A stretch of DNA of 54,336 nucleotides from Candidatus Poseidoniaceae archaeon (GTDB lineage: Archaea; Thermoplasmatota; Poseidoniia; Poseidoniales; Poseidoniaceae), in the NCBI GenBank assembly GCA_949373095.1, contig CASIBY010000008.1, positions 1 to 54,336 of the forward strand, given 5' to 3'. The position numbers and the translations under genes were made by a program. A model generated the notes under the pieces. The model made no database searches. It was not told the origin of the DNA and saw nothing but the letters and a program-made list of their open reading frames with translations. Of this stretch, positions 13,849-53,900 are shown piece after piece. Within the stretch, counting starts at the first letter, position 1; each line of letters starts with the position of its first letter.

Positions 13849-14736
13849 TTAGAGATTTTGATACCACGCAAGCGTGTAGGTTTCGGCGTACCGGTCGTTG
13901 GTGATTGAAGTATGCCCTAAGGGACGAACAACGACGAGCATGTCCATCTGCCCTCCGGGTGATGCAGAACCTACACAAACGACTTCACCTACCTTGAGTC
14001 CTTCTTTAGATGTTGAAATAAGAGATTTGACGGTGAACAAACGAACCTCAAGAGTAACGTCGTCACCCCCTCCTACATATCGGTGGGTGTTTGGGGCAGC
14101 AACAGGCTCTAGTTCTACTTCGCTCGGGTCTAGCCGAACAAAGGGTATTTGTTCATCCAGCAACGCAATGGACTGTTGCATCCGAGATGATTCAACACCC
14201 AGTGAAAAAGCGATGTTGAAGGTCGATGCTTCTCCGCCGAAACTTCCTGTTTGATGTGGCATGCGAACGGTTAGGGATTGAACGATTTCAAGTGAAGGCA
14301 TGAGCCAAGTGTACTGTTCACTTGCCGGATACAACGGTGCCTCAGGGTTTTCCAGGAACGTTGGCTGGCCCCATTCTTCAGGAGCAGAAGGAGTTGAAAC
14401 TGGAAGCATCCCTCCGCCTGCGAACATCAAAACGCAGAGAAATAGAGCTACAAGCCGAGGCTTACGATACTCACTCCATTCCGCTCTTCCCGCAGGACTC
14501 AATGCAGAAAGTATCAACATCACCGGCAGTAGCAAAAGAATTCCATATGGGACAATCCAAATTAAAATTGTAAACATGGCAGCCATAATAACGCCGTTAC
14601 GGCCAATGGGATGAGTCCAATGCACGGGGGGTTCTTGAGGAACTCTACGATTGAGGATGTAGAGTGCACCTCCGCCTCCTAAAAGCGGAAGCAACGAATG
14701 AACAAAACCTTGCCAGACCATACACTTCGCTCTCAT
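13849..14736 (-). CDS. Uncharacterised membrane protein with large C-terminal domain
   Basis: 295 residues. Three hydrophobic segments are near the N-terminus: ~8-28, ~49-80 (IMAAMFTILIWIVPYGILLLLPVMLIL region) and ~93-112 (LVALFLCVLMFAGGGMLP). They are followed by ~185 residues predicted as soluble and beta-rich. No family is recognised. The gene is divergent from an ABC transporter pair whose ATPase start lies ~70 bases away (or overlaps if an upstream start is used), so the two units probably share a promoter region. Confidence 0.65.
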   Translation of the reverse strand: MRAKCMVWQGFVHSLLPLLGGGGALYILNRRVPQEPPVHWTHPIGRNGVIMAAMFTILIWIVPYGILLLLPVMLILSALSPAGRAEWSEYRKPRLVALFLCVLMFAGGGMLPVSTPSAPEEWGQPTFLENPEAPLYPASEQYTWLMPSLEIVQSLTVRMPHQTGSFGGEASTFNIAFSLGVESSRMQQSIALLDEQIPFVRLDPSEVELEPVAAPNTHRYVGGGDDVTLEVRLFTVKSLISTSKEGLKVGEVVCVGSASPGGQMDMLVVVRPLGHTSITNDRYAETYTLAWYQNL

Positions 14737-14806
14737 GATTCAACAGAGTACCATGAGGGTTTGGGTCGTCCCAAGGTTGATGCAAGGGTTTCCCTTAAGC
14801 CGAACC

Positions 14807-15832
14807 ATGGCGGAACCTCTTCTCACGTTCGCCAACGCTGAGCATCGCCACATGATTTCGGTTCCTACCCTACCTCGTCCTTGGAAGAAGGTGAAAGGGC
14901 CAGGGATTGTTGGTCTCAATTTGGACATCTATTCCGGATGTGTTTTAGGACTTGTTGGACCAAATGGGGCGGGAAAAACAACCTTGCTGCGAATGATGGC
15001 AGGTATTCTTCCTTTGCAAGCAGGAACGGTTACAGCACGATTCTCGTCAACTGAAGCGGAACATGTCGATGACTTACGGCAATGGGTTGGCCACATGCCT
15101 GAACAGGTGCGATGGCAGGGTCCTCAAACCGTCCGTGAGGCACTGGAAGCCATTGGTGACATGCGGAATACTCCCGCGAAACGAATTGATGGATTGCTTG
15201 ATTTGGTCGGTCTCAGTCTTCGCAAGGATGAGCGCCTGGACAATCTAAGCCAGGGTATGCGTCAGCGGTTATCCATCGCTGCAGCCCTTCTTGGTTCTCC
15301 AAAAGTTCTTCTTTTGGATGAACCCTTTAACGGTCTTGATCCTGTGGCTGCTGAAGCCTTTACTCAACTTGTCAAACGTCTTGCAAGCAAAGGAGTGGCG
15401 GTGGTCATTTCATCGCACATGGTTGCTCAGTTGGACCAACTCATTGACCGAATCGCTCTCTTGCATCGTGGTCAATTACTGGACGAAGGGAACTTGGAAG
15501 AAGTTGAGCGCCGCCTCAATCTCTCCAACCGATACCGAATCCAAGGCAAAGGCGCGGTAGACCTCGCCTCCTCACTTTCCGATGTTGACCATGAAAACCT
15601 TGGTTTTGAAAGCGATGAGAATGAATGGGCCTTCGTTTTCCGCGGCCAAGCAGAAGCTGTACTGCATGCACTCATGACTTCTGCAATGGTCACATCGTGG
15701 TCGCCGGTCGCTCCGAATTTAGTTGAATTACTCTGTGCTGCAACCGGCATGGAGGTTGAAGATATTTCTTTGGAAGTCGGTTCTTCAGCAATGCTCCCAA
15801 TGCGTATTTCGGAGGCCGAGGAAGATGAGTGA
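14807..15832 (+). CDS. ABC transporter ATP-binding protein, ABC-2/Nod type
   Basis: 341 residues from the ATG at 14807 (MAEPLL); the frame is open further upstream to an ATG at 14735, which would overlap the divergent gene. Walker A (GPNGAGKTTLLRMMAG), signature (LSQGMRQRLSIAAALLG) and Walker B (LLLDEPFNGLDP) are intact and typical of ATPases paired with ABC-2 permeases (Nod factor, drug or gliding-type exporters). A C-terminal ~100-residue extension, acidic at its end, may be regulatory. It overlaps the permease start by 8 bases. Likely exports an unknown compound. Confidence 0.9.
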   Translation: MAEPLLTFANAEHRHMISVPTLPRPWKKVKGPGIVGLNLDIYSGCVLGLVGPNGAGKTTLLRMMAGILPLQAGTVTARFSSTEAEHVDDLRQWVGHMPEQVRWQGPQTVREALEAIGDMRNTPAKRIDGLLDLVGLSLRKDERLDNLSQGMRQRLSIAAALLGSPKVLLLDEPFNGLDPVAAEAFTQLVKRLASKGVAVVISSHMVAQLDQLIDRIALLHRGQLLDEGNLEEVERRLNLSNRYRIQGKGAVDLASSLSDVDHENLGFESDENEWAFVFRGQAEAVLHALMTSAMVTSWSPVAPNLVELLCAATGMEVEDISLEVGSSAMLPMRISEAEEDE

Positions 15833-16655
15833 CCGGGGCCGTATATGGCGCATGAGTCAACGCATACGCGACCGACAACTGTTTGGAATCCGTTTGAAAA
15901 TCATGCTTCCGATTCTCATTCTCTTTCTTCCTGGAATGGCGTGGGGCTTCTCTGATCCTGAAATCATTCTCCCTGGAGGCCACCAACCCTCCACTCCGAT
16001 GGAGGTTCTTTTCTATGCGTCCCTAGGGGTGGTATTTGGAGCAACTATGTGCGCTGTATTGCTATCTTTTGATGGTATCAGCCGTGACCGTTCTAGCGGA
16101 ATGCTTGAGATACGCCTTGCTCAACCGATGCCGCGTAAGCACCAAGCAACGGCCTTGGTTTTAGGTCACTGGCAAGCTATCGCCTTGCCTGTTTACGCCT
16201 TGATGTTGGTTTGCCTTGTTATCGTCAGATACAGAATGTCGGAGTGGCCAAGTGTGATTGAAACACTGGTGTATCTACTCTCTACAGGTCTTATTCTTCT
16301 TTGGTACACGCTTTTTGCACTTCTTGCATCTACATCGGCCAAGGAACAAGGAACAGCCGTTGCCTTTGGGGTCGGCGTATGGTTTTTCTTCACGTTCCTT
16401 TGGGCGTTGGTCACCACTATGGTTGCCTACGCCTCCGGAGTAGCCATTGGTGAAGCAAACGACCCGACATGGGTGGCGCTTGAAGGTGCACTCGACCTCC
16501 TTTCGCCCAACGGGGTTTATCATCACCTGCTTGAGACGCAACTCCCAACAGTCGACAGAGGAATTTCAGCATGGCAGGCTTGGATTGGCGCTGCGATATG
16601 GACAATTTTGCCGTGGTGGATGCTTCATCGACGCATGGAAGCCCTTGTTCCGTGA
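15825..16655 (+). CDS. ABC-2 type transporter permease
   Basis: 276 residues with about six membrane helices: ~25-42, ~60-85, ~105-130, ~142-165, ~170-200 and a last one near ~245-265. The segment SFDGISRDRSSGMLEIRLAQPM between helices 2 and 3 is the hallmark cytoplasmic loop of ABC-2 permeases (similar to NosY and GldF), where the paired ATPase docks. The ATG at 15825 (MSDRGRIWRM) is chosen because it overlaps the ATPase stop in coupled fashion. The frame also runs upstream into the ATPase gene but without support. Partner of the ATPase at 14807-15832. Confidence 0.85.
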   Translation: MSDRGRIWRMSQRIRDRQLFGIRLKIMLPILILFLPGMAWGFSDPEIILPGGHQPSTPMEVLFYASLGVVFGATMCAVLLSFDGISRDRSSGMLEIRLAQPMPRKHQATALVLGHWQAIALPVYALMLVCLVIVRYRMSEWPSVIETLVYLLSTGLILLWYTLFALLASTSAKEQGTAVAFGVGVWFFFTFLWALVTTMVAYASGVAIGEANDPTWVALEGALDLLSPNGVYHHLLETQLPTVDRGISAWQAWIGAAIWTILPWWMLHRRMEALVP

Positions 16656-16701
16656 TGGATGAAAGGCAATTGTCTATGAAGTCCAAAGTACACGGCATGG
16701 C

Positions 16702-18651
16702 ATGACACGCCTATTCTCAGTGCTTCATCTGACTTCCCTAACGCTTGTTTTCTTGATGGTTTCCAGCGTGATGGGGCCCGCAATGAGCGCCAATCTTAGC
16801 GATGATTCCGACCCAATGAATGCTGAAGGACGGCAAGATACCTTGGATGTTGATTGCAGCGGATACACCTTTGAAGACCTCTTTGAATATGATTTTGCGC
16901 TGTTTGAACTTGAAGTGTTTGATGACTGGGCAACTGGCGATATGTTCGCTAATGCCTGGGTGAACGGTTCCAACTCCCCTATCGTCCGAGACAATCTTGA
17001 CGGTTTGTTCGAAGGTCTGCCAGGCGGCGGAAACGACTGGATCAGCACAGATGAGCGAGATGCAGTACGAAGCATTGGCCCAAAGTGCATCGCTGATATG
17101 GAAACCCGACTTGGAATGCGTGAAGGAACTCCTCACTCCGGTGGAGTGGACTGGAATGACTTTGAATTCGTAGAAGACGGAATTGGCTTGAATGAAGTAA
17201 ATCTCGTTCCTGAAGAACATCAAGAGGCTCGCACTTGCACGAACTTCGGTGCTGCTCAGGACTGTAAAGAAGTTCCAGTTTCAGTAACTGATGACATGGA
17301 AATCAGTCTTGGTTTGGCGGACGGGCAGAGTAACAACGTTCGTTGGGACCAACTCAACAATCAAGGAGTTTCGAATTTCACCATCGGTCTCAACATCACC
17401 AACATGAGCAATGCAGCATTGGTGGTCACCTTCCCGGTGCTGTCAGGATTGCGAATGTATGGTTTCCGAACGACAGACAACGCTCCAAACAGCGGCGACA
17501 CCTGCGATAACATCGGAACGCCTTCCTCCACATACTTACCCGATGGCGCACTTCAACTGACACAATTAGTTTCCTTTGACCGAACTCAATGGGACCTGAT
17601 TTGTAATGTTTTCATGGACTTCACAACCGAAGTCCCTGAGGTGAACGATGTCCCAGTGTGGACCAGTACTGTCCCCGAAAACGGAACACGGATTGGAACC
17701 AACGGTGGAACAACCATGTTCGCTGCCGCAGAGGTTGGAAACCAATGGGCAAATGATGATGACGGATGGTCCCTCGATTGCACCTTCGCTGAAGAGGGAT
17801 GGAGTATTTCTACCAATGTTTTAGGAGATTTCTTTGTGACACAACCAACGGGTTCAACGAGTTCAACAGCAACGTGCCACCCGGTTGATCCACTTGGGGC
17901 AACTGACGAAAACAACACTCGGATGTGGACGTTTGGAACCCTCTTCACATCAACCGCAGTTGTTAGCGAGGATGGTAAAACTGCAGTGATGACCGTAACA
18001 CCTACAGATTTCATTGACCAGTTCATCGTATATCCTTATGCAATGCAGGGGTCATTCGAGGTGGCAGACGATGCTTCAGGCACCGTAGCAGGTGCCCCAT
18101 CTGACATCACGCTTTCACTGGAAGGTATTCGCCCTGGAAGCTTCTCTATCGGCGGAGTGGTACAGGCTTCGAACATGCTACCGTATTCATTCATCGTTGA
18201 CCTTGGCGTATTCAAACCGAACTCAGCGCCTGTACTTTCAGTAGCCGTCAACTTTGATGGAAACAATGCAACATGGGATGCAAGCGGTATTCAATTTGAA
18301 TTGATTGGTCTAGCAAATGACCCCGACTCTGAAGCGGTTACGTTGTCCCTCACTATCTGCGGGGCAGAAACCTCTGGATTTACACAGGACAACATCAACT
18401 GGCGAGTTGATGTCTCTATCGCTATCTGTATGGCGAATGAACTGGAAACATACGACGTCATCATCACTGCAACTGATGAGTCTGGAGCCAGCACAAGTCT
18501 GGCCGTTGGAGTAAACCCTCCGGACCTTCAAGAGGACTCCACAATTGTCATTGATACGGCCGAGGATAGTGCCTTACCATCCCTATCAATGCTGGCTATT
18601 TTGTCAATGATTGGTATCGCCGCTCTTCTGGGCCGCCGTATCGATGAATGA
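16702..18651 (+). CDS. Secreted, C-terminally anchored surface protein
   Basis: 649 residues. A signal peptide (hydrophobic LTSLTLVFLMVSSVMG, cleavage likely after PAMSA, ~residue 30) and a C-terminal membrane helix (LSMLAILSMIGIAALLG) followed by RRIDE give the layout of an exported cell-surface protein. The mature part is acidic (Asp/Asn/Thr rich) and contains Cys at intervals, suggesting disulfides. It shows no catalytic motif; the last ~120 residues look like a cadherin/Ig-type beta domain (PNSAPVLSVAVNFDG, LANDPDSEAVTLSL). It follows the ABC-2 pair by 46 bases and may be a cargo or neighbour on the envelope. Confidence 0.75.
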   Translation: MTRLFSVLHLTSLTLVFLMVSSVMGPAMSANLSDDSDPMNAEGRQDTLDVDCSGYTFEDLFEYDFALFELEVFDDWATGDMFANAWVNGSNSPIVRDNLDGLFEGLPGGGNDWISTDERDAVRSIGPKCIADMETRLGMREGTPHSGGVDWNDFEFVEDGIGLNEVNLVPEEHQEARTCTNFGAAQDCKEVPVSVTDDMEISLGLADGQSNNVRWDQLNNQGVSNFTIGLNITNMSNAALVVTFPVLSGLRMYGFRTTDNAPNSGDTCDNIGTPSSTYLPDGALQLTQLVSFDRTQWDLICNVFMDFTTEVPEVNDVPVWTSTVPENGTRIGTNGGTTMFAAAEVGNQWANDDDGWSLDCTFAEEGWSISTNVLGDFFVTQPTGSTSSTATCHPVDPLGATDENNTRMWTFGTLFTSTAVVSEDGKTAVMTVTPTDFIDQFIVYPYAMQGSFEVADDASGTVAGAPSDITLSLEGIRPGSFSIGGVVQASNMLPYSFIVDLGVFKPNSAPVLSVAVNFDGNNATWDASGIQFELIGLANDPDSEAVTLSLTICGAETSGFTQDNINWRVDVSIAICMANELETYDVIITATDESGASTSLAVGVNPPDLQEDSTIVIDTAEDSALPSLSMLAILSMIGIAALLGRRIDE

Positions 18652-18699
18652 ACCGGCACAACCAAAAGGGGATGGCTGTGGGTTTTGAACGGGGAGACC

Positions 18700-20073
18700 A
18701 TGTTCACCGGCACGATTGAATCACAAAGTCACGAAGGTGGCCTGCTTGTTCGCTTTGAGGGTTCATCCCCATCACTAGATGCTATTCTCGTACTTGCGGA
18801 GAACGGAACATACGTCGGAAAAGTGGACGGGGTTCTGGGTTCAACCAGTCAACCAATGGCTCACATAGGACACATTGACCGTGAGCTCAAACTTGACGAC
18901 CTCTTGGGATCTCATGTCACTATTCGGGCCAAAAAACCACGTCAGGACCGAGAAAAATTCCGCCGTGACTCACGTGATTCCAGAGACCGCTCAGGTGGCA
19001 GTGACCGTAGAAATGATTCCCGTCATGATAATCGCAGTGATCGAGGTGAGCGAAGGGACCAAAGCTCCTCATTCAACGACAATGATTGGACATGCCCAGA
19101 ATGCAAAAATTCTAACTTTGCCTTCAGACAAGCATGTAATCGATGTGAAGCCCCACGACCTGGTGGCGGTGGAGGTTCTCGAGACAACGGAGGGCGTTCA
19201 GACCGAAGGCCACAACGAGATGGTGGACGTTACGAGCAACGTGGCGGAAACAACCGACAAGAAATTTACAATGATAATGATTGGACATGCAGAGAATGTA
19301 ATAACTCAAATTTTGCATTCCGACAAGTCTGCAACCGATGTGAAGCACCTCGCCCTGGTGGCGGTGGAGGCCGATCCGGTGGAGGCCGATCCGGTGGTGG
19401 AGACCGTGGTGGAGACCGACGCAGTGGCGGCGGTGGATACGGTGGAGGAAACCGAGGCGGAGACCGTGGTGGAGACCGACGCAGTGGCGGCGGTGGATAC
19501 GGCGGAGGCCGATCCGGTGGTGGAGACCGTGGTGGAGATCGACGCAGTGGCGGCGGTGGATACGGTGGAGGAAACCGAGGTGGAGACCGTGGTGGAGACC
19601 GACGCAGTGGCGGCGGTGGATACGGCGGAGGAAACCGAGGCGGAGACCGTGGTGGAGACCGACGCAGTGGCGGCGGTGGATACGGCGGAGACCGTGGTGG
19701 AGACCGACGCAGTAGCGGCGGAGAACGTGGTGGAGACCGACGCAGTGGTGGCGGTGGATACGGCGGAGACCGTGGTGGAGACCGACGCAGTAGCGGCGGA
19801 GAACGTGGTGGAGACCGACGCAGTGGCGGCGGTGGATACGGCGGAGAACGTGGTGGAGACCGACGCAGTAGCGGCGGAGACCGAGGCGGAGACCGTGGTG
19901 GAGACCGACGCAGTAGCGGCGGAGAACGTGGTGGAGACCGTCGTGATAACAATCGCCGTCCACAAAGCAACGACTCAAATTATCGTCATGCAAAGGGAAA
20001 ACGCCCAGGGCACGCTCACAATCGAGGACCAAACGACCTCCAACCGAAGAAGCACGACCGATACGACGATTGA
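18700..20073 (+). CDS. Gar1-like H/ACA RNP protein fused to two RanBP2 zinc fingers and an RGG tail
   Basis: 457 residues from the ATG at 18700 (an in-frame TTG lies five codons earlier). Residues 1-~80 align by eye with archaeal Gar1: GLLVRFEG, then [18 protein letters not shown] matching the Gar1 core VGKVxDVFGPVxxP, then a basic stretch. Residues ~130-149 and ~195-214 are RanBP2-type zinc fingers ([21 protein letters not shown]-x-C-x2-C-x3-N-x6-C-x2-C), the single-stranded-RNA-binding type found in FUS and ZRANB2. Residues ~220-425 are nearly pure [16 protein letters not shown] repeats, followed by a basic tail. Gar1 is a core subunit of the H/ACA pseudouridylation RNP. A glycine-arginine (GAR) region is known from eukaryotic Gar1, whereas characterised archaeal Gar1 proteins are short. 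Probable functions are RNA modification or RNP assembly, with the tail promoting RNA binding or condensation. Confidence 0.85.
19356..19950 (+). repeat. Coding minisatellite encoding RGG/GYGG repeats
   Basis: About 600 bases of near-identical units built from GGTGGAGACCGACGCAGT, GGCGGCGGTGGATACGGC and GGAGGAAACCGAGGC blocks, repeated in several orders with units of ~39-66 bases. The low-complexity DNA keeps all frames open on both strands, which creates long false frames there. Copy number is expected to vary between strains and to be hard to assemble. Confidence 0.9.
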
Positions 20074-20088
20074 TTGGGGGTTGACAAC

Positions 20089-21126
20089 TTGAGCGCAGAA
20101 ACGCATTATCTCAATGCTCTGGAAGCTCTGGATGCGGGAGATAGGCCAAAAGCTCTTGAAGAAGCTAAAAATGCCACCTCCCTTGATCCTGAACATACTG
20201 AAGCATGGTCAATTTATGTTGAAGCTACCGTTCCTGCCCGTGGAGAACAAATGACCATGCTCGATGCGGCCCAAGCACTGGCTGCCGTGAAAAAAATCGT
20301 GGCCCTGGATCCATCAAGATTAGACATGTGGCTTCGCGGTGGGCGACTTATGGCCGATGACCTTGGCTTGTTACACGATGCGCTACATTGGTGGCAGAAA
20401 TGTCGTAACTACACGCCTGATGAGGCTACACCACTTGTTGAAATGGCTTCTATTCTTGCTGATATGGGTGAATATGAAGAGGCTCAGCGCAGGCTGGAAG
20501 CAATTCTTGAAGAAAATATGGACGTCCCGACATCTCAATTCACTCGGATTAACGGGCTATTGAACCTAGTTAGGGCTGCTGCCAGTCAAGATTCTAAGGA
20601 AATTTTCCGACCTTATGAGAAGCACCACAATGGTTGGGAGGCCATCCGACAAAAAATGAAGAAGCCCCCTATGTCTGAGAATTTTATTTTCCTCATGGTG
20701 TCGGTTCCACTTCTTTTGGTGGTGATTTATTTCTCGCAACAATTCGCAGGACAAGGATGGGGTTCATTTTGTCTGACAACCATGGTCATTCTGTTCATCG
20801 TCTTGTTTTCGATGAGGACTGCAAAACGTTGGTTCCAACTTATCAATCGTCCCGCATTCAATCTATTGAGGGCTATGAATTTTGAAGCGTCTACCGGTCA
20901 TACGGTCCTCCAAGAAGACATTCGCACCTCTATTCTCTACATGTATATCATGCAACGAAAACCCAGGCCATGGCAGGAACGCATGCTCAAAATCATTGAT
21001 AGAGGCGCATCTCTTCCGAAGAATTGGAAGCCTCGACTCCCTGATTTTGAGGCCCACCACTCATACTTAGAAGACTTCGTTGAGGAAGACGATTATGAGG
21101 GCTTGCGCCCTTACGAAGAAGAATGA
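20089..21126 (+). CDS. TPR-repeat protein with a pair of membrane helices
   Basis: 345 residues from a TTG start preceded by GGGGGTTG (another TTG lies 15 bases upstream, right after the Gar1 stop). Residues ~1-165 are tetratricopeptide-type helical repeats (ALEALDAGDRPKALEEAKNA, then ~38-residue periodicity with MASILADMGEYEEAQRRLEA). A central membrane hairpin follows at ~200-245 (FIFLMVSVPLLLVVIYF, LTTMVILFIVLFSM). The C-terminal ~90 residues are soluble, with an acidic end. TPR domains mediate protein-protein contacts, so this is probably a membrane scaffold facing the cytoplasm. It runs in the same direction as the Gar1 fusion, 15 bases away, and is likely co-transcribed. Confidence 0.75.
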   Translation: MSAETHYLNALEALDAGDRPKALEEAKNATSLDPEHTEAWSIYVEATVPARGEQMTMLDAAQALAAVKKIVALDPSRLDMWLRGGRLMADDLGLLHDALHWWQKCRNYTPDEATPLVEMASILADMGEYEEAQRRLEAILEENMDVPTSQFTRINGLLNLVRAAASQDSKEIFRPYEKHHNGWEAIRQKMKKPPMSENFIFLMVSVPLLLVVIYFSQQFAGQGWGSFCLTTMVILFIVLFSMRTAKRWFQLINRPAFNLLRAMNFEASTGHTVLQEDIRTSILYMYIMQRKPRPWQERMLKIIDRGASLPKNWKPRLPDFEAHHSYLEDFVEEDDYEGLRPYEEE

Positions 21127-21127
21127 A

Positions 21128-22393
21128 TCACGTTCCAGCAGTGTAATCGTCAAGGTAGGCGGTTTGTTGCGGAGATAGCGAATCTATGCTAAAGCCCAAT
21201 GTAGCTAATTTTGTTGTAGCAAGGTCTGAATCTTGTTCCTTAGAGATGTCATACACGACCGGGTCCATTGTGGCGGCTTCTTCAGCAAGGCGAACCAGAG
21301 CAAGATATTGATTTGCAAATGACATGTCCATCACCTCGGAGGGGTGCCCTTCAGCAGCGGCGAGGTTGACTAGACGGCCGTCAGCGAGCAAGAAGATGCA
21401 TCTTCCATCAGCCATGGTGTACTCGTCATTATTATCGCGAATTGTTCGCACTCCCTTTGAAACCGATTTCAAGTCTTCAATGTTGATTTCGCAATCATAG
21501 TGTCCGGTGTTGGCGACGATCGCCCCGTCCTTCATGGATTCGAAATGACGCTTGACAATGACGTCCATCATGCCTGTTGCAGTGCAGAATATGTCACCAA
21601 GGGCTGCGGCTTCATCCATCTTCATGACTCTGAAACCATCCATGACAGCTCGCAATGCCGGTAGTGGGTCGATTTCAGTGATGATTACATTCGCTCCCAT
21701 CCCTTTCGCACGCATGGCCAAACCCCGACCACAATGTCCGTAACCTGAAACGACAAACGTTTTTCCAGCAATGAGAACAGAGGTTGCTCTCAGAATTCCG
21801 TCTATAGTTGACTGACCTGTCCCGTACACGTTGTCAAAGTCCCACTTTGTGATGGCGTCATTTACGGCGATCACTGGATATCGTAAGTCTCCAGCCTTGC
21901 CCATGGCCCGCAAGCGGTGGACTCCAGTTGTGGTCTCCTCAGTCCCCCCAAGAACGCCTTCTGCGTACTCAGAGCGTTTTCCATGGACACGGACGATGAG
22001 GTCGGCTCCGTCGTCAAGTGTGAGAGTTGGTTTGAACTCAAGCGTCTTGTCAATACACCAGTAGAAGTCATTGACATCTTGGCCGTGCCAAGCGTGAACG
22101 GAGTATCCCTCACGAGCGAGCCAAGCCGCAACGTCGTCTTGTGTGGATAACGGGTTGCATCCTGACCATGAGATTTCTGCACCTGCTGCAGCAATGGTTT
22201 CGATCAATACAGCAGTCTCTTTGGTTACGTGTAGGCAACCAGCAACTCGCATGCCCTTCAGCGGCTTGATTTTCTCGGCCTCATCTCGAAGTGCTTTGAG
22301 CACAGGCATTCGCGCTCGGGCCCAATCTACGCGCAGTGCGCCTTCATCTGCAAGCCCAAGGTCGGCAACCGTATACGTCTCGCCTTTGTCCAT
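21128..22393 (-). CDS. ahcY: S-adenosyl-L-homocysteine hydrolase
   Basis: 421 residues, the shorter archaeal/thermophile size class. It hydrolyses S-adenosylhomocysteine to adenosine and homocysteine in the methylation cycle, using tightly bound NAD. Visible motifs are the substrate region HVTKETAVLIETIAAAGAEI, the catalytic-pocket NDAITKWDFDNVYGTGQS, and the Rossmann GYGHCGRGLAMRAKGMGANV (GxGxxG). The C-terminal end DDYTAGT lacks the KPxxYRY extension of bacterial and eukaryotic enzymes. It converges on the TPR gene with one base between stops and is separated from the giant surface-protein gene upstream by 73 bases. Confidence 0.97.
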   Translation of the reverse strand: MDKGETYTVADLGLADEGALRVDWARARMPVLKALRDEAEKIKPLKGMRVAGCLHVTKETAVLIETIAAAGAEISWSGCNPLSTQDDVAAWLAREGYSVHAWHGQDVNDFYWCIDKTLEFKPTLTLDDGADLIVRVHGKRSEYAEGVLGGTEETTTGVHRLRAMGKAGDLRYPVIAVNDAITKWDFDNVYGTGQSTIDGILRATSVLIAGKTFVVSGYGHCGRGLAMRAKGMGANVIITEIDPLPALRAVMDGFRVMKMDEAAALGDIFCTATGMMDVIVKRHFESMKDGAIVANTGHYDCEINIEDLKSVSKGVRTIRDNNDEYTMADGRCIFLLADGRLVNLAAAEGHPSEVMDMSFANQYLALVRLAEEAATMDPVVYDISKEQDSDLATTKLATLGFSIDSLSPQQTAYLDDYTAGT

Positions 22394-22466: not shown

Positions 22467-25400
22467 TCACTGCTGTGATTGAGCGTACTGGACTGCATAT
22501 TGCTGAGCATAGGCAGCTGCTGTCGCAGCATCATAACCTTGTCCAACAAATTGCTGATAGTACTGTTCGTAAATCGCCTGGTCGAATCCACCAGCGGCCG
22601 GTTGAGCGACGGCTGGCTGAGCAACAGCAGCTTGTGCTGCTGGTTGAGCGGCTGCACCTGCAGCATCTCCACCAACGTATTGTGCAGCGAATGCACGAGC
22701 AGTCTCTTCAGGGTAGCCCTGAGCGATGAGTTGCTGGACATATTGCTCTGTTGGGTCAAGTGCATCGGTGCCAAAGGCGCCACTCATGTCTCCAAAGGCA
22801 TCTTCCTTTTCTCCACCACGGCGCATGAACATCAAGGTCCCTACGATGATAAGGAGAAGGAGTCCTCCTGCAGCGATCAACATTGTTGAGTCCAGTCCAT
22901 CCGAACCACCTTCAGTACCGTCTCCGGAAGGAGTTGCATCAGCCCAAAGTCCTGTGGCTGGGTCATAACTCCAAGCTCCAGACCATTCACACTCGTCATT
23001 GTCGTTCATGATCCAGCGTCCACCAGCCGCTTCTGCGGCAGGGTCGATTTCAGTGCCTTGACAGATTGGAAGGTTGATGGTAATCTCTCGGTAGATACGG
23101 TCTACGTCCTTGTCTGCATCAGCGCCTTCGTACACCAAGAGGTAGATGGTCACTGCCTGAGAGGTTTCGTTATTGTAAAGGCTCTTCAAGTTAAGAGTAA
23201 GTTCCCAGTTGTCTCCATTAGAAAGCTTGTCGGTCTTTTCCCAAAGTTGGTTTCCTTCGCCTAGGCGGTCCTCGCTCAAGTTGTATTTCTGAAGACTATC
23301 TAGGGCAAAATCACCGCTGTTGAAAGCGACTTCAATGTACACGTCGTTATCTTCAGAACCGCTCAAGATTTGACCACTCAAGGTGATGTTATTGTCGGTG
23401 TATTGAGTTCCATTACTGGATTCCTGCGTCCATGTGAAGTCCACAGGCTCGTCGCCCATACCTTCAGCAAGAATCACGAAATACATTCGGTATTCATCCG
23501 AAACACGTCCAGCACTGTCTGTGACAGTTAGTTCAATCTTGATTTGATTCTCAATTGAACCGGTATCGTCAACTGTGACGTTTTGGAACTTGTAGGACCA
23601 CAAACCACCGCTTGCAGCAGTTTGAGTGTAAGTGTCACCGAGCAGTCGGTAGTCATCGTCGCCATATTTGGCGTCGTAGAGTACCTTCCATTCGTAACTC
23701 TCAATTCCGTTTCCACTGAGGGCGTCGGCGTCAGATGAGTTGCTTGCGTCAAAGTGGACAACCAGTTCTCCACTATCCTCTTGGAGGACGATTCGGTATT
23801 CATCGTAATCCACACCTTGGAAGGTTTGAGGCTCTCCCATGGTGATGAAATCCTCATATGTATCTCGTATATCGACTTCCCCGTTAGCTACTGGAATGAA
23901 TTCGTCAGCCTCAGCATCGTTGGTTTGTACGGTGACTTGCAATTGACGAGAGTGTCCTGCATCATCATGGAGATAAAGCGTAATGTGCCATTCTTCTCCC
24001 TGAGCACAGCGAGTTAGGGATGACAGGTCTGTCTTACAGAAATTCTTTACTGGCATCTGTTCAGTGGTGTGGCCCGTGTTTCCGTTTGCTAGAGAGCTTC
24101 CTGCCCAATCGTTTGGTCCATCAATGACCCAATCCGCATTCAGAGATGCTTCAGTGTCGCTGAGGAAATCAAAGGTGAGTGTAGCGTTGCTCTTCATGTA
24201 ACGCACCCTGTATCCGTTGGTATTTGGATCGTTATCTGGGACTTCTCCGTTGATGGTGATGTCTTCATTATCAAATCCAGAAGGATAGGGTGTGACTTGG
24301 TACTTCAATAGGTTTCCAAGGAGCGGGAATGTTGAGTCGTTTGCACGATTTGAATTTCCTGCAACGTCAATGGTCGTGACGAGGAGCCCTCCTTGTTGAT
24401 AACTGCAAACTCCTAGTAGCGTATCCTGGATGTTGTCATTCGAGCGAATAATACGCTGGAATTCTCCGCCATTCTCCATGTATCCTCCACCACAAGCGGT
24501 CGGTAATTCGTTCGGACTTACGTCTGAAGTGCTGATGACGCCGTTAGCGATTACAGTATCACCGAGAGCAGTGAATCCTTGGAAAGAATTGGGTGCCACG
24601 TTATCCATAATTGGGTGGTACGGGTCGGCTAAATCCATCTTTGCGTAAGTGATTTGCTTATCCGCATCGGTCTTTTCCTTGATATCTAGGTTGAACGGAA
24701 GTCGGGAGGTTGAATCCTTTCCATAGACCTGTTCACCATGCGGTGCAAAGTGAGCCTGAATTGTTCCACCAGCCGACATGAAGTTGGTTAGGACGGTCTT
24801 TCGCTGAGCAGGGTCTGCGAGTGCCTGATAGTATCCATCTCCACCTTGGTCGGTATCCTTGGCAGCATTCAAGTCCTGCATAGGTAGGATGATTTTGTCG
24901 TAATGTGTGAACCATCCAGCGTCGAAGTATTTGTCCCAGTCTCCAATCTCGTATTGAGTGTATGTCAATCCTAGGATGGCGAGATCTTCCTTGATAATTC
25001 TGGTTTCCGTTGATTTGTCTGAAAGGATAGCAATGTCAATGTTGTCAGCGAAAGTTGCATAGAAGAACTTTGGAGTTCCTTTTTGTGTTCCGTCGGTAAG
25101 TTCTCCGTAGAAACTAATGTTGTAGGTATGTCCGTCAATCCATCCATTCCATGGTGTAAACGTGACATCTGTCCTTTCTTGACTTAGCAGACTTATCGAA
25201 GGCCCTGAGTCAACCAGATGTGCTGTAGTTCCGTCGGCCATGTCCACGACTTCCATGTAGAACACGTACTCGCCTGCAAGAACTCCGTTGGTGGCTTGGA
25301 ACTCCCACGAGTGTGTCAATGCACTATCGATTGGTAGGACACAAGGGAGTGTTTGGTCGGTTTGACATGCCAGTTTCTTCGGCCTACCGATGGTAATGTC

Positions 25401-28400
25401 AACAGATTCAACATTGAAAATAACTCGCTCGATATTGTTTGCAGTGGATAGTTCGTTGTTGTTGTACCAGTTGGTTCCAACCGTGCCGTTGTCAAAGATG
25501 GTCTTGACGTCGAGCCGATAGACACCAGAAACGAAATCGTGGGTTGCAATCACACTCGTATCAACATCCTCAGCATCAACACCGGTTCGTGTTGTGGTGT
25601 AGGTTGCATCTTGAACGAAGGTGTATTCCTGCAATGAGATGTTGTTGATACCAACGCCTTTGAATCCGTCGTTTATGCCGTTTCTTCCATCTTCATCAGA
25701 TTGGAATTCAAAGTTGATGTCTACAATCGAACCTTGTAGGGAAATACATTCCGAGAACCATTGAGAAGAGTCCGTAGATGAACGGTTCTGTATGTACAGG
25801 TGAGTCAAGTCAATACTGGCTGTTTTGACAAGTTCCTCTGTGTTGAAAAATACGTTATAGTTGCCTGAGCCTTCTTCATTTGATGGATCGCCAATGTAGT
25901 CGAGTTCAGTAAAGTCAATAGATTCGGAGGCATTGACAATTCCGTTTCCATCGTCGTCATTCTGGCATGTCCCATCCTCATTGTAGTCGTTCCACTGAGC
26001 AAAGACAAGACCAGAATAGTTCTCTGAGCGTGTTGAAGTTAAATCCCATATTGCCTCCTTTTCATAATCCACCATCATCAGTGCGTAATCACTTGGATCA
26101 ATGTTTCCACTTTGGTCGGTGGTGTAGAACGTGTCAGCATAATACTCAAAGTTCAACGAAACGAAATCCCCTGCCATGCTGGTCAGGTTAATGTTTGGAA
26201 TGGTCAATGTCTCGTTTGCCCATGCATCATCGTAACCGTTGGTGGAGGTGTCACATGGGTGGCCGAACCAGTAGGCGTTGCTGTTGAAAATCTTGGTTGA
26301 ACATGAGTTTTCACCATAGATGACACCCTTGGGGTTTTGGTTTTCTTCGTGCAAGTATCCGTTGCTATCTGCAGTAAAGTCTTCTTCACAAACAGTGTTG
26401 CTGGCACCACAGACTACATCCGATGGCGTTGCTGAATAGATCGTTGCTTCAATATCAAAGTCAACTGGCGTATTTCCCCAGTTGTTCGTTGTTACTCCGA
26501 TGTCAAACAATCCCTCAGCGTACAAGCCTCCGGGGAGGAATCCTTCAATTCCTTCAACAGCAGGGTCATACAGGTTGAATGGTGTAGCAAAAAGAAGCGC
26601 ATCATCATTGACAGACTGTTCGTCCCACGCATTGTTGGAGATAGTGGCAGAAATTCTGTACGTTGTGTCATTAAGCAGGTTTGCCTGAATCGAAGTGGTG
26701 TATTCTTGACCAGGTTCTAGGTTGCTAAGTGGGCCGATGGTGGTTGTCTGAGTCTGCGGGTTAGGTAGGAATGCTGTGTTCTGCTTCCAGATGGTTAGAT
26801 TATCAACTGCAAATCCATCTCGCCCGGACCAACGGCTCTCGTTATCGTCTGCGGTTGAACCCTCGAAACCAGTTCGGAATCGGAACCGAACATCTACTGT
26901 CTCTCCAGCCCATTCGGACATGTCGAAAGAGCCGAGTCCTTCCTCAGTGAAATTGTTCCAGCCGTAATAGGTTCCTGATGCGTAGAGGCCGTAGTATACG
27001 ATCTGGTTTTCATCTGCTCCCCAGAAGTTTTGCTTGTACATGCGATCCGTGTCAAAGCCGCCCCACATGGACAAACCTGATGCGCATGCTCCCGCCAAAG
27101 CTGCTTGTCGTGGACATCCGATGAGACTCCATCCAGTTTCTTCACTTCCCACTTCGATAATGGCCAGGTCGTCCCAGACATCCCCGACGATGAATCCGTT
27201 TTGGTCGGCACTTCCAAGGGCGCCAAGTCCCAAGTGTTGGAACAGTTCAACGCTCATGAAGGCACGGTCTGCGCCAGTGAGGTCGACATCCTTGAGGACC
27301 ATTGAATCGTCCCAGTTCCTTCCATATCCGGACCATTGGTCGCCGGATTGGTTGGTTTTCATGTTACCTGCCCACATAAAGTCGGTTGGGTTGAGGTAGT
27401 TGGCAGAAATATTCGGGTCATTGTTGCCTGTGGATGCTCCAACTGAGTGATTTGTCTCAAGGTGCCAGTTGGTGGCGTCATCAAGATACTCTTCAAAGGC
27501 CCAGTTACAGCCTGAGCCACAGCCTGTTTTTACCTCAGGCGTGTCCCAATCGTTAGAGTATACGGTGGAATTTGATGAGTTCAATTCATCAACGATCTTC
27601 AATGTAACATCTAAGTCTGCACTCTGGCCGTTAAGGGTGTCCATTCCAGTGTTGGTTACAGTGACGTTGATGTTACGAGCGCCTTCTCCGACTGCGCCAA
27701 AGAAGCGGTCTACGGGTGAAATGTCCAAATCGGTTACAGCTAAGTCTTTGTTGTCCATCTCAACGATGGTGAGGGTGTCGTATTGCCCTTCCCAGCCGAA
27801 GTTGTCTCGCCATCCGCCGAAATTATACTGAGTATGGCCAATCACCAAATCATCAGCTGAGGTTGGTCCTCCGGACAGTTGTCCGATGTCAACAGCAGAA
27901 GGTCGGCGACCCGTGACGTACGAGAGCGGGCTAACGTGTCCTCCGTTTCCGTCTGAGAGCGTTACTTGGACGGTTGTAGGGAATGAGAGGAAGAAATTGG
28001 AAGTACTTCCGCCGGCAGAGTCGGTGGTGTTTAGCTGGTAGGCAATGGTTGGGTTGACGAAATCAGGCTCACCGTCTCCGTTGAGGTCGTCAATTGCGAT
28101 AGACCAAGAAATGTATGGTCCAAAGTAAGCCTTTTGAGGCGAAACAAATGTCCCTTGGGCAGATGTTTGGGAATAGGAGACGTTCTCGAGATTTCCGTCC
28201 ATGACGGCGATGGTATCAATGTAGCCGTTACCACCAACATCCGCAATTGCGAAATCATCGGTAGTGGTTGTTTGCATGTTGACTACATGCGTGTTGGCTT
28301 GATTGGAACCATAGGTGTATGAAATTGGGTAGCCGGGGGCTACTCCAGATGCAGTACAATCGTATTCGATAATAGTGACGTTGTCATCATTACCGGGGTT

Positions 28401-29213
28401 TGTGGCGGTGCCTGAGGCGTAGTCCAGCCCTTCGCTTCGTAGGAGGAAGATGTCGTCGTCAGTACACGATCCGGAGAAGCTGCTCTGACTTTCACCCCAG
28501 TCTCCAACTTCGATATTGCGGTAGGTGTTCTGTGTTGAAGCCCCTAGCGTGGTAATTAATCCTTGAGAGTTTGAGGTGATTGGTCCGGAGTAGGTGACGA
28601 CCCGTTGGTTTCCTGGGGTGACGTCTGTGATGTCGAGGACGTAGATATCATCTCCACCCGTTTGGTCAGCATTTCCGACAGCCATGTCCCATACCCAAAA
28701 GTGAGTGAAACGCTCTCCAATGCTCCAATCTTTTTCTCCACATCCACCGTTTTCAATGATGGTAATGTTACCTGGCTCACCCGCAGGTTGACCTTGTTCG
28801 TCAGTCTTGAAAGGATTGTTTTTCTGGTAAATGACAATGTCGGGGGCGCTATCTCCGGTGAATTCACCGACCTCGACTTGCTCCACATTCGCAAAAGAGT
28901 CCCATTCTGCATTGCGGCTTTGATTGCCTGTGACCCATACATCTTGGCGCTCGCTGAAGTCTCCGTTACCATCGTTCCAAAGAATACTCAAGGTGTGAGT
29001 TCCTTCAGTTGCGATAGCGAGGTCGTTGTGTCCGTCACAGTCAAAATCACCAATGGCGACATCCGCAGGGTCGCGGTTGGTCGTGTAGGTTCGGGAAACT
29101 GAGGCGCTGGCTGTAGTTGCGAGTGCAGCGGTCGTACTCAATATCATCAACAATGAAAGGAATAGGCTGCGGGCTCGGGCTCTAGAGAGGTCATTTTTTG
29201 ATAGCATAGACAT
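22467..29213 (-). CDS. Giant anchored surface protein with FG-GAP repeats, amidotransferase-like and PKD domains
   Basis: 2,248 residues from the ATG at 29213 (GTG at 29216 also possible). In order: a signal peptide (~12-38); FG-GAP/VCBS-type calcium-binding repeats (DFDCDGHNDLAIA, DLNGDGEPDF; ~40-500); several beta-sandwich blocks, some MAM-like (RDGFAVDNLTIW); a region at ~1394-1628 resembling a class I amidotransferase/ThuA fold (YDKIILPMQDL, FMSAGGTIQAHFAP, GGLLVTTIDVAG); a PKD-like domain (~1814-1918); a membrane helix near 2110-2130 followed by RRGG. The ~115-residue cytoplasmic tail carries two copies of an EQYxxQxxxQGYxxxTAxAxAxQY motif separated by an Ala/Pro/Gln linker. Probably adhesion or polymer binding outside the cell, with the tail contacting a cytoplasmic partner. 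It is the largest gene in the window. Confidence 0.85.
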   Translation of the reverse strand: MSMLSKNDLSRARARSLFLSLLMILSTTAALATTASASVSRTYTTNRDPADVAIGDFDCDGHNDLAIATEGTHTLSILWNDGNGDFSERQDVWVTGNQSRNAEWDSFANVEQVEVGEFTGDSAPDIVIYQKNNPFKTDEQGQPAGEPGNITIIENGGCGEKDWSIGERFTHFWVWDMAVGNADQTGGDDIYVLDITDVTPGNQRVVTYSGPITSNSQGLITTLGASTQNTYRNIEVGDWGESQSSFSGSCTDDDIFLLRSEGLDYASGTATNPGNDDNVTIIEYDCTASGVAPGYPISYTYGSNQANTHVVNMQTTTTDDFAIADVGGNGYIDTIAVMDGNLENVSYSQTSAQGTFVSPQKAYFGPYISWSIAIDDLNGDGEPDFVNPTIAYQLNTTDSAGGSTSNFFLSFPTTVQVTLSDGNGGHVSPLSYVTGRRPSAVDIGQLSGGPTSADDLVIGHTQYNFGGWRDNFGWEGQYDTLTIVEMDNKDLAVTDLDISPVDRFFGAVGEGARNINVTVTNTGMDTLNGQSADLDVTLKIVDELNSSNSTVYSNDWDTPEVKTGCGSGCNWAFEEYLDDATNWHLETNHSVGASTGNNDPNISANYLNPTDFMWAGNMKTNQSGDQWSGYGRNWDDSMVLKDVDLTGADRAFMSVELFQHLGLGALGSADQNGFIVGDVWDDLAIIEVGSEETGWSLIGCPRQAALAGACASGLSMWGGFDTDRMYKQNFWGADENQIVYYGLYASGTYYGWNNFTEEGLGSFDMSEWAGETVDVRFRFRTGFEGSTADDNESRWSGRDGFAVDNLTIWKQNTAFLPNPQTQTTTIGPLSNLEPGQEYTTSIQANLLNDTTYRISATISNNAWDEQSVNDDALLFATPFNLYDPAVEGIEGFLPGGLYAEGLFDIGVTTNNWGNTPVDFDIEATIYSATPSDVVCGASNTVCEEDFTADSNGYLHEENQNPKGVIYGENSCSTKIFNSNAYWFGHPCDTSTNGYDDAWANETLTIPNINLTSMAGDFVSLNFEYYADTFYTTDQSGNIDPSDYALMMVDYEKEAIWDLTSTRSENYSGLVFAQWNDYNEDGTCQNDDDGNGIVNASESIDFTELDYIGDPSNEEGSGNYNVFFNTEELVKTASIDLTHLYIQNRSSTDSSQWFSECISLQGSIVDINFEFQSDEDGRNGINDGFKGVGINNISLQEYTFVQDATYTTTRTGVDAEDVDTSVIATHDFVSGVYRLDVKTIFDNGTVGTNWYNNNELSTANNIERVIFNVESVDITIGRPKKLACQTDQTLPCVLPIDSALTHSWEFQATNGVLAGEYVFYMEVVDMADGTTAHLVDSGPSISLLSQERTDVTFTPWNGWIDGHTYNISFYGELTDGTQKGTPKFFYATFADNIDIAILSDKSTETRIIKEDLAILGLTYTQYEIGDWDKYFDAGWFTHYDKIILPMQDLNAAKDTDQGGDGYYQALADPAQRKTVLTNFMSAGGTIQAHFAPHGEQVYGKDSTSRLPFNLDIKEKTDADKQITYAKMDLADPYHPIMDNVAPNSFQGFTALGDTVIANGVISTSDVSPNELPTACGGGYMENGGEFQRIIRSNDNIQDTLLGVCSYQQGGLLVTTIDVAGNSNRANDSTFPLLGNLLKYQVTPYPSGFDNEDITINGEVPDNDPNTNGYRVRYMKSNATLTFDFLSDTEASLNADWVIDGPNDWAGSSLANGNTGHTTEQMPVKNFCKTDLSSLTRCAQGEEWHITLYLHDDAGHSRQLQVTVQTNDAEADEFIPVANGEVDIRDTYEDFITMGEPQTFQGVDYDEYRIVLQEDSGELVVHFDASNSSDADALSGNGIESYEWKVLYDAKYGDDDYRLLGDTYTQTAASGGLWSYKFQNVTVDDTGSIENQIKIELTVTDSAGRVSDEYRMYFVILAEGMGDEPVDFTWTQESSNGTQYTDNNITLSGQILSGSEDNDVYIEVAFNSGDFALDSLQKYNLSEDRLGEGNQLWEKTDKLSNGDNWELTLNLKSLYNNETSQAVTIYLLVYEGADADKDVDRIYREITINLPICQGTEIDPAAEAAGGRWIMNDNDECEWSGAWSYDPATGLWADATPSGDGTEGGSDGLDSTMLIAAGGLLLLIIVGTLMFMRRGGEKEDAFGDMSGAFGTDALDPTEQYVQQLIAQGYPEETARAFAAQYVGGDAAGAAAQPAAQAAVAQPAVAQPAAGGFDQAIYEQYYQQFVGQGYDAATAAAYAQQYAVQYAQSQQ

Positions 29214-29336
29214 CACTTATCCGACCCAATGCCTGTTTCAATATAATGCCTTTGTAATCTAGTTCCATATGAACCATAGCGCAGGGTGTCATTTTTGTTT
29301 AAAATCCACCGAAAAAGCGGCATGAGGTTTCGGACT

Positions 29337-50955: not shown

Positions 50956-53900
50956 TCAACGGCCCCAAAAATGGTTATCTTTGCGATGCAAACTCACGAT
51001 TTCATCGAGAATCTCTTCTTCTATGGGTGTCAAGTCGGCTTTCTTTAGTCGTTTGACATGACGCTCTGGGACATACTCGTGCTTCGCGCGGAGGCGGGTG
51101 TTGTCCCAGGCGGACTCGATGGCCTCGCGGATGCTGGTGCTGTTCTTGGCGGCGGTGATGATATCCTTCTTCACCTCGGCCTTGCACGGGTCGTCCGCCT
51201 TCTTCTTCTTCGCGGCGTCGACGCTCGCCTTAGCCATGTTCATTTTCGCAATGCTCGTGAGCACGCGCATCGCGCGGTCCGACGCCTTCTTCTTGGCGGT
51301 GTGGAGCACCTTAGCGACGGCGCCTGCGCGCTTGATGTCCTTGGTGGTCTGCAGGCGCTTGAGAGTCTTCATCTCGATGCTGTGCAGGGCGCGGTTCTTC
51401 GCGAGCGCACCTTCCGCCCCGACGAGTTCCTCCTCGAGAGTGTGAACGTCGATATCAGCCTGGCGCAGTGCCATTTTCGCTTTCAACATCGGCTCCGCCT
51501 TGGTGCCGTTCGAGGCCTTGGCGCTGTCAGCCGCAGCCGCGTCACGCACCCGCCGCGCCTCGGCAAGGCGAGCGTCGATCGTCTCCTTCGCAAGGCGCGC
51601 ATGGGTCACGAACACACCGGACTTCTTGACCGCGTTTTCGGCCGCCTTCAACGCGTGGCGCAGTTCGTTGATCGACGCCTCGATCGCCTTGCCGTTCTTG
51701 AGCGCATTGAGGATGCTGAGATCCCGGAGCGCCTCGCGGGCCATCGACCCGGTCGCGCCGGTAGCACCGCCGGTGGCACCGCCAGTGGCACCGCCGGCGG
51801 CGGACGGTCCCGCGAGCGTCTTGGCCGCGCGGTCGAAGGCGGAGATCGTGTCGAGGTACCGTTTGAACATCTCGCGGGCGTGTGCGAGCGCCTTCTCCGC
51901 CGCCTTCAACTCGCCACGCGCCACCCCTTCCGCCGCCATGACACCGAGCTCCTCCTCCTCGACGATGTCCGACTTCTTCTGGAGACGCTGCAGCAGCTTA
52001 GCGGTTTCGTCGATGGTCTCCACGCCGGACTCCGAGTCGCTGTTCTCCTGGCTGTTCCGCACCGCGGCGGCAAGCATAGCACTCCCGCGGCCCTTGGCCG
52101 CCTGGGCCGCCTGGAACCGCGTCTGCACCTCCGTCTTCTTCTCGACAAGCACGGCAAGGTGCATGGTGGCATTGCGCAGGCGCAGCTTGGCATCGGCGAT
52201 GCCGCGCGTGAACGCCTCACGCTTCTCGCTGCGAATGAACTCGCGCATTGCCTTGGCGTGCGCCTTGGCGACCGCCTCCTTGGCTTCCGCGTCGTGCATC
52301 TCGGCGCTGATCTTGCGGATCGTCGAGATCGCGCTGCGCGCCGCCTTCGTGGCGTTCGTGATCTGATCGACGTTGGCGTCGCGGTCGCCGTCCGCCAGGG
52401 CACGCTCGGCGGTAACCCGAGCCAGCTTGGCCGCGATGAACAACGGCGCCAGGTTCAGCCGGCGGCGGTGCTCGCGCTGGGCGATCTCCTCGGCCTGGAT
52501 GAGCTTTACCTGGTGCACGTCCGTAATGCGGAGGAGCGACGTGCTGGCGTCGCCCGCGGCAGAGGGCCCGTCGGTCGCCAGCACCGCGGCGGAGGCTTTG
52601 AGCAGCTCGTTCGCCACCTGGCGGACGTTCTTCGCGAGCTTGTCCGACCGTCGAGCGATGCGCTCGATGCTTGTCACGCCCTCGGTCCCCGTGGCGCCGG
52701 TGGCACCCGTGGCGCCGGTCATGCCTGTCGCGCCGCCGGTCATGCCCGTTGCGCCACCGGTCATGCCCGTCGCGCTCGCGTCGATGATGATCGCCTTGGA
52801 CATCATCGAGTCAGCTGCCGAGGCGAGCTCGGCGGACGTCGGCACGTTGAGCCCCGGGTGCTCCGTCCCCTTGGCCTTGACGAAGCCGAGCATCCGGCGG
52901 GCCTTGCGCGCCATCTTTTCGAATTCGATGAGCAGCTTGGTGAGGCGGGCCTTCTCGGTGGTGAGACGCACCGTCGAGAGCTTGTTCTTCGTCTCCGTGA
53001 CCATTTCGGTGGCCTCGCGCAGCTCTTCCTGGGCGATGACCACGCTCGTCGAGAAAGTCTTGCGGAGACCGGGCTGCGACATGGCGTCGCGGCAAGTCGC
53101 GCAAGTCCTGGGCGGCCTGCTCCGACTCGATGCGGTCCAGCACGGAGCCACCCTCGGGGCCCGTCTTCTTGGAAAGCGCCTCGTCAAGGTCCGCTTGGCG
53201 GTCGAGCATCGACACCGCGTTGCCGATGCCGTCGAGGTTCGAGAGGGCGTCCTTCGCGGTGGTCAGAACGCCGAGGTCGGCGGTAGACCGCGTGCGGGAC
53301 GCGGAGCTCGTGGCGGTAGCTAGCGAACGCGAGGACGCGGCGATGGCCTTTTCGACAATCGCCATGGCCGCCTCCGCCTCCTGCGACAGCTTCTTCTTCT
53401 CGCGTGCCGGCATGCCGATCGGGATGCCGTGCGCGTCCTTCTTCGCGGCCGTGGTGCTCGCGATCGTCGAGGCCACATCGCTGTCGCGCGTGGCGAGGTT
53501 GGCGGCGTCAGCGATGGCCTGCTCCGGTGACTTCGTCGTCCCTTTCGGTCCGGTGGCGCCCGGCGCAGGCCCGGTCGCGCCCGTGGCGCCCGTGGCGCCC
53601 GTGGGGGCGGCCTGGACGTCGAGCAGGTCTTCCATTGCCTTTGATGTGTCGAGGAGGAGCTCCCGCTTGCCCTTAGCGGCGTCGGCGCCCGCGACATTGC
53701 CCAACTCGCGGTCCACTTTCTCCTCTTCGGTGGCTGCCAAGAGCGAGCGCTTGAGCTGCTCCTTCTGGTTCAGCGACTCGAGGTCGTTCAGCTTGGTCTG
53801 GATCTCGACCTTCATCTCCTCGGTGACGTCGGGGCGCTCCAGCGAGGCCACAAGCGCGTCCCGCTTTGCCTTCATGACGGCGTCCTCGGAGACCTGCTCC

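Follow-up and report, generated by a model that had tools for sequence, protein, structure and literature searches.

The gene at 18700..20073 (plus strand) of a Poseidoniales contig raises the question whether an archaeal Gar1 can carry RNA-binding appendages, and what these would do in an H/ACA ribonucleoprotein (RNP). The window, i.e. the whole stretch of DNA that was analysed, comprises 54,336 nucleotides. The gene runs from an ATG at 18700 to a stop codon ending at 20073 and encodes 457 amino acids. The frame itself opens with a TTG at 18685; the aligned homologues, most of which begin at the same site, fit the ATG start. AlphaFold2, run with an alignment of ten sequences, predicted three folded islands (residues 1-78, ~128-155 and ~193-220), and pLDDT was below 50 for residues 79-127, 156-192 and 221-457. 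The first island is a small beta barrel, the Gar1 core (residues 1-78, 18700..18933; located by Pfam, hhalign and AlphaFold2 plus Foldseek). It is followed on the same strand by a linker rich in R, D and S (residues 79-127, 18934..19080, predicted disordered), a first RanBP2-type zinc finger (residues 128-155, 19081..19164), an inter-finger linker that is also predicted to be disordered (residues 156-192, 19165..19275), a second finger (residues 193-220, 19276..19359), an RGG/GGYGG tail of tandem DNA repeats (19360..19945; TRF, pLDDT ~30) and a conserved basic C-terminal motif of 17 residues (19981..20031), in which GHAHN occupies 20008-20022. No RGG lies N-terminal to the core; the protein begins at the barrel and the RGG repeats are C-terminal only. 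The initial annotation had proposed a Gar1 fused to two zinc fingers and an RGG domain of ~200 residues, which was borne out, and the layout recurs across the order. An assembly artefact was ruled out, as the same layout is found in separate assemblies. Long open reading frames in other frames overlap the repeats. These were read as by-products of the repeat composition, because it is the frame of 18700 that contains the core, the fingers and the C-terminal motif.

The identity of the barrel was addressed by profile and structure comparison. PF04410 matched residues 13-61 of the isolated 87-residue N-terminus (E = 7.5e-5, 22.9 bits) and scored 18.4 bits on the full protein (E = 0.0019), both short of the curated Pfam cut-off of 29.3 bits. 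When a profile of 38 Poseidoniales cores was compared by hhalign with one of 24 Gar1 cores from other Thermoplasmatota, the two aligned over 69 columns with a probability of 97.7% and an E-value of 1.7e-12. The Thermoplasmatota partner profile in turn matched Pyrococcus Gar1 at 7.4e-16 and, more weakly, yeast, insect and human Gar1 and Naf1. A PDB search with the Poseidoniales profile likewise ranked Pyrococcus Gar1 first, at a weak E-value of 0.0043. The predicted core (mean pLDDT 85.6) has six strands, and Foldseek placed Pyrococcus Gar1 chains (2ey4, 2hvy) at ranks 1-3, with an rmsd of 1.3-1.9 and a TM to target of 0.83-0.85; no Foldseek match of the predicted core had an E-value below 0.001. 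Rank 4 was an ATP-synthase chain, and ATP-synthase or V-ATPase chains fill many ranks from 20. Taken with the weak Pfam score, these would fit another small barrel, e.g. of an ATP-synthase beta subunit, that resembles Gar1 by convergence. However, the listed ATPase chains reach a TM to target of ~0.10-0.13 at best, while ranks 5-19 are Naf1, Gar1 or other H/ACA RNP chains like those at the top, and with a profile match along the core and Gar1 first in the PDB profile search such convergence is extremely improbable. The family of the barrel is settled as Gar1 by comparison of the sequence profiles and by the predicted fold. It is filed as Gar1 despite the Pfam shortfall, because the cut-off is a sensitivity threshold and the homology and fold tests agree. 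The initial assignment of residues 1 to ~80 to Gar1 stands on these grounds; in the HMM searches it had proposed, the fingers score over their cut-off and the N-terminus matches PF04410 below the curated one. The FGP turn of other Gar1 proteins is replaced by LGS, IGS or similar residues in Poseidoniales, and several members of a second family of the order (the window's own being the first) keep the GP. In a Gar1 tree the Poseidoniales cores are long-branched, do not stand beside the Gar1 of f3, another family of the class, and are set apart from all other sequences by a branch with support 100/99; the alignment has few columns, the bootstrap had not settled, and sister-group relations are left without clear support.

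The genome of the window (82% complete, 26 contigs) encodes the H/ACA partners Nop10 and Cbf5 (DKCLD) and two L7Ae-family genes. The tailed gene was the sole PF04410 match in this genome at E ≤ 10 (21.8 bits), and no second Gar1 was detected there. Among 174 genomes of the class, Gar1 matches over the cut-off occurred in seven, all of them from f3, which we take to be Marine Group III; thus the Poseidoniales sampled showed no canonical second Gar1. A second plain Gar1, whose absence the initial annotation had wanted checked, was rejected on both counts. A further genome assembled as a single contig (G083, 96% complete) carries the tailed protein in the same position as elsewhere and gave no PF04410 match at 0.01. 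The core was present in 56 of 59 Poseidoniales genomes (the window's own and 58 of the same order); in the other three (G006, G034, G050) a search with the Poseidoniales profile, run without a positive control, also found none. Two or three core copies in G010, G016 and G023 are read as strain mixture in the assemblies, and G031 has a further weak core match (E = 0.006) in a 1112-residue frame.

For the zinc fingers, PF00641 matched the finger region in two stretches at 1.3e-18 and the full protein at 60.6 bits against a cut-off of 27, with 39.7 bits at 19084-19164 and 37.6 bits at 19279-19359. The pattern W-x-C-x2-C-x3-N-x6-C-x2-C, with four cysteines each, occurs exactly at residues 130 and 195, in agreement with the two RanBP2-type fingers first proposed. 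Among solved structures, FUS is closest to the window's fingers (9.3e-6), followed by ZRANB2 and RBM10. In the finger numbering of PMC6384913, onto which we mapped the residues here, D4, N14, R20 and N24 are invariant in 78 of 78 distinct strict-pattern fingers, and none of the four is fixed by the search pattern: D4 is the Asp before the Trp, N14 the first Asn of N-x-N, and R20 and N24 follow the third Cys. At the stacking site (17) Phe occurs in 71 and Tyr in 7 of these fingers, and the R19 site holds Phe (53), Arg (20), Trp (4) or Lys (1). According to the accessible part of PMC6384913, FUS and EWS fingers bind GGU despite a Trp at position 19, and a finger with Lys at 19 and Ser at 20 did not bind. 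Variant fingers in genera g11 and g15 have a longer last Cys spacing and Lys at the R20 site. The RanBP2/NZF family also includes fingers of Nup153, RNF31 and MDM2, and the window's fingers could in principle bind a ubiquitin- or Ran-like protein rather than RNA. But these three match more weakly than FUS, ZRANB2 and RBM10, and all four RNA-contact side chains are kept, and we consider protein binding very improbable. By their residue pattern the fingers belong to the RNA-binding (FUS/ZRANB2) type, and they retain the side chains with which FUS and ZRANB2 read GGU RNA.

At 1e-4 PF00641 matches were found in 38 of 48 Poseidoniales, 0 of 4 f3 and 24 of 246 other genomes of the phylum, a count over 298 genomes in which 216 unlisted genomes with no match were taken as other classes, nearest kin being listed first. 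Matches over the cut-off occurred in 43 genomes of the phylum, 37 of them Poseidoniales. The checked Poseidoniales matches over the cut-off fall in the Gar1 gene, sharing a frame or contig with the core; this location leaves out G089, G145, G147 and one G133 piece. Five matches at contig ends in four genomes are pieces of the Gar1 gene, recognized by the core, the C-terminal motif or the TPR neighbour. Outside the order, five of the six genomes with a match over the cut-off were read, and none has Gar1 in frame with it; one of these frames is 36 residues long.

The tail contains 17 RGG and 7 GGYG motifs over the ~212 residues from finger 2 to GHAHN, close to the ~200-residue RGG/GGYGG tail of the first description. 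Its DNA repeat units are 33, 45, 60 and 78 bp among others (TRF), and because of these tandem repeats positions 19001-20000 have a GC content of 0.60 and a GC skew of 0.28. A single DNA pattern for RGGxRGG gave four matches in the window's genome, and a reversed control pattern three; all four matches lie in the tailed Gar1, and a second RGGxRGG protein in this genome was rejected. The arginine methyltransferase profile PF22528 matched 0 of 13 genomes, and the control genomes were likewise without a match. Finger 2 and the C-terminal motif are 54, 138, 160 and 212 residues apart in four closed sequences from close genomes, with cores that are identical or one residue different. Tail sequences also vary between genera, and such tandem repeats could be a neutral minisatellite by-product, with only the core and perhaps the fingers being of consequence. 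The composition of the tail is nevertheless retained: R and G together account for no less than 37% of tail residues in all 21 first-family proteins and no less than 28% in all 17 of the second family, counted on closed proteins without undetermined residues, eight closed ones with such residues being left out. The medians are 43% and 41%, respectively. Of the 27 closed proteins from the window's family, 25 also keep the frame open to GH[AST]HN[RQ], and we regard a purely neutral tail as unlikely. This short linear motif is found in 0 of 19 closed proteins of the second family. In one of the two first-family exceptions (L009) unrelated residues end the protein after the repeats, perhaps by a frameshift; in the other (L039) the frame enters undetermined bases. 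Repeat number thus shifts fast, and tail composition and frame persist.

Selection on the folded parts was estimated in five close genomes. The core showed 0-1 non-synonymous against 7-26 synonymous differences in 86 codons, and the fingers 0-3 against 3-18 in 54 codons. For core and fingers together dN was 0.003-0.013 and dS 0.11-0.67, and both are under strong purifying selection. The tailed-Gar1 architecture is confirmed as real and beyond chance, because the layout recurs across the order and dN of core and fingers lies far below dS.

To describe the architecture across relatives, 72 open reading frames were read from loci L002-L073; they represent 67 distinct sequences, and L002-L013 partly repeat genomes already sampled under G handles. 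In the window's family 27 closed distinct proteins have one (4), two (17) or three (6) strict fingers, and seven more loci of this family have two to four. The closed proteins read from this family thus carry R/G-rich tails plus one to four fingers. The 19 closed distinct proteins of the second family have no (9), one (6), two (2) or three (2) strict fingers. Variant fingers were detected by the finger HMM in one second-family protein without a strict finger (L058), a degenerate finger (E = 0.31) or none in the two proteins of genus g7, and no finger in the three proteins each of g9 and g13, which have a tail only. Some proteins of the second family consist of the core and an R/G-rich tail of ~70-90 residues alone. 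In f3, the one other family of the class that was sampled, all nine loci read encode a 74-residue Gar1 with no tail. Outside the class, 28 of 30 loci read give a Gar1 of 60-124 residues and two give 146 and 152 residues, counted from the nearest Met or the domain start. These 30 (the 24 best-scoring plus six picked for long frames or as checks) were drawn from 178 matching genomes among 395 searched, and a strict finger was found in 0 of the 30. The survey of related genomes suggested at the outset recovered the same fusion across the order, with a layout that varies in the second family. The 146-residue Gar1 (L165, genome G195) comes from another Thermoplasmatota family, f10, and has a 71-residue basic tail with some R/G and no finger, possibly a further independent tail.

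The gene order around the window's Gar1 (14735-22393) is an ABC ATPase, a permease, a 649-residue protein without Pfam hit (16702..18651, plus strand), Gar1, a TPR protein (20074..21126, plus strand), whose frame starts one base past the Gar1 stop, and an SAH hydrolase on the opposite strand. This arrangement is conserved across Poseidoniales. Among 79 locus rows with a core, in which genomes repeat, 78 have a homologue of the 649-residue protein and 52 the TPR gene. The 27 rows without the TPR gene mostly end, as contig or stretch, near Gar1; the g13 loci L059, L061 and L069 do not. This common position indicates that finger-less and fingered Gar1 forms are orthologous. At seven f3 loci, which cover only ~1 kb per side, the conserved neighbours were unmatched. 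An RNA operon was rejected from the identity of the flanking genes. An RNA-related context, by which the initial annotation wanted the gene judged, is thus absent from the neighbours and present elsewhere in the genome in the form of Cbf5, Nop10 and L7Ae.

Such transport, TPR and SAH-hydrolase neighbours, the long branch and the altered FGP turn would also suit a Gar1 barrel recruited into a general RNA-binding protein, e.g. of an mRNA or cold-shock RNP outside H/ACA, with Cbf5 working Gar1-free. We consider this quite unlikely, more so than a neutral tail, as Cbf5, Nop10 and L7Ae persist with no other Gar1 found, the core hardly changes in amino acids among the five close genomes, and core-plus-tail proteins without fingers exist in the second family.

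Comparison with known proteins places the combination between several systems. Pyrococcus furiosus Gar1 (2ey4/2hvy) shares the barrel fold, and its partner genes are present here. Archaeal Gar1 is described without GAR regions in the accessible part of a review (PMC7991803), and the nine f3 proteins and 28 of the 30 others are short, as first stated for characterised archaeal Gar1; unlike these, the Poseidoniales protein adds fingers, an RGG tail and, in the window's family, the C-terminal motif. With eukaryotic Gar1 it has in common a Gar1 core and RGG repeats. Eukaryotic Gar1 carries RGG at both N- and C-terminus, as stated in the available text of PMC8096250, whereas the Poseidoniales protein has RGG at the C-terminus alone, separated from the core by zinc fingers; the eukaryote-type arrangement, with RGG on both sides of the core, is not seen. 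The FUS/TAF15 layout invoked in the initial annotation fits in fingers and RGG: like FUS, EWS and TAF15 the protein has a RanBP2-type finger, a Phe stacking site, an aromatic residue replacing R19 and RGG nearby. FET proteins have an RRM and an N-terminal QGSY-rich domain. The analogy fails at the RRM, which was absent from the tailed Gar1 in a Pfam scan and is replaced by the Gar1 barrel; there is no QGSY-rich domain either, and the fingers number one to four. ZRANB2 has tandem RanBP2 fingers with the same GGU-reading residues and an SR-like tail; the tailed Gar1 differs in its RGG tail and in the Phe replacing the stacking Trp.

Among the Thermoplasmatota sequences compared, the tail is absent from f3 and from nearly all other Gar1 proteins that were read, which speaks for a tail that arose independently of eukaryotes, either inside Poseidoniales or at their base. 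Since the fusion is spread through the order and the nine f3 proteins are short and tail-less, the independent archaeal origin put forward initially is the economical reading, and its suggested clue to nucleolar tails holds as convergence only. Given the review's statement, Poseidoniales offer a clade-wide and apparently independent counter-example to archaeal Gar1 lacking GAR regions. In the accessible text of a reconstitution study (PMC8096250), Gar1 RGG domains are treated as eukaryote-specific. Each part is known by itself; their combination, and its presence throughout an archaeal order, did not come up in the literature, in a search largely confined to papers free of subscription. The same search yielded no literature on Gar1 in Asgard or Marine Group II archaea and nothing related on RNA-binding zinc fingers of Poseidoniales, and the word Gar1 is absent from the available main text of a survey of low-complexity domains across life (PMC11132505).

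We consider it probable that this Gar1 is an H/ACA subunit with appended modules that bind single-stranded RNA and hold the substrate. In Poseidoniales (Marine Group II archaea) the tailed protein would be the Gar1 of the H/ACA pseudouridylation RNP. Judging from the family, the barrel most likely sits on Cbf5, like that of Pyrococcus Gar1, and influences the thumb loop and product release. A flexible arginine-rich linker would then carry the FUS/ZRANB2-type fingers, which, to judge by their residues, most likely recognise G-G-U-like single-stranded segments in rRNA or guide RNA, and the RGG tail would add weak multivalent RNA contacts. As a speculation, fingers and tail may keep substrate RNA near the RNP and aid guide-target annealing or slow substrate loss, and several RNPs might be gathered on one rRNA. 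Gar1 touches Cbf5 and not the guide RNA, and helps catalysis and product release, as given in the accessible parts of PMC7991803 and PMC4551948; GGU-type fingers and RGG repeats would let this subunit touch RNA by itself. In yeast RNPs, deletion of the Gar1 RGG domains slightly lowered activity at one hairpin and raised it at the other under multiple turnover, so that RGG removal alters yield and turnover (PMC8096250, available text). From these effects we reason that the appendages probably retain or position substrate RNA. The essential functions of yeast Gar1 are performed by the central domain alone (PMC7991803, accessible part), and the tails may accordingly be dispensable.

Condensation by the tailed Gar1 would be a reasonable, if conjectural, extension. 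That a eukaryote-like H/ACA RNP able to form condensates evolved independently in Poseidoniales, with Gar1 as the scaffold of rRNA-modifying particles through multivalent RGG tails and GGU fingers, is a tentative and rather doubtful proposal. If true, it would mean a nucleolus-like body in archaea, and targets would be chosen at a second level, encoded in protein, in addition to the guide RNA. The tailed Gar1 would represent a second, apparently independent case of H/ACA RNPs gaining RGG tails, which makes the effect of such tails on pseudouridylation testable in a compact system with natural variants: Gar1 with no tail, with an R/G-rich tail only, and with a tail plus one to four fingers.

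Elsewhere in the window, a 2249-residue open reading frame on the minus strand (22467-29216) resembles by eye a giant surface protein that has a membrane segment at its C-terminus. At 51000-54336 the GC content jumps from ~0.48 to 0.64-0.69, with an AT skew of ~-0.28, and this end of the contig may be chimeric or of foreign origin. The frames at 50956-53187 and 52811-54301, both on the minus strand, are rich in Ala, contain collagen-like GATGATG repeats and gave no Pfam hit.
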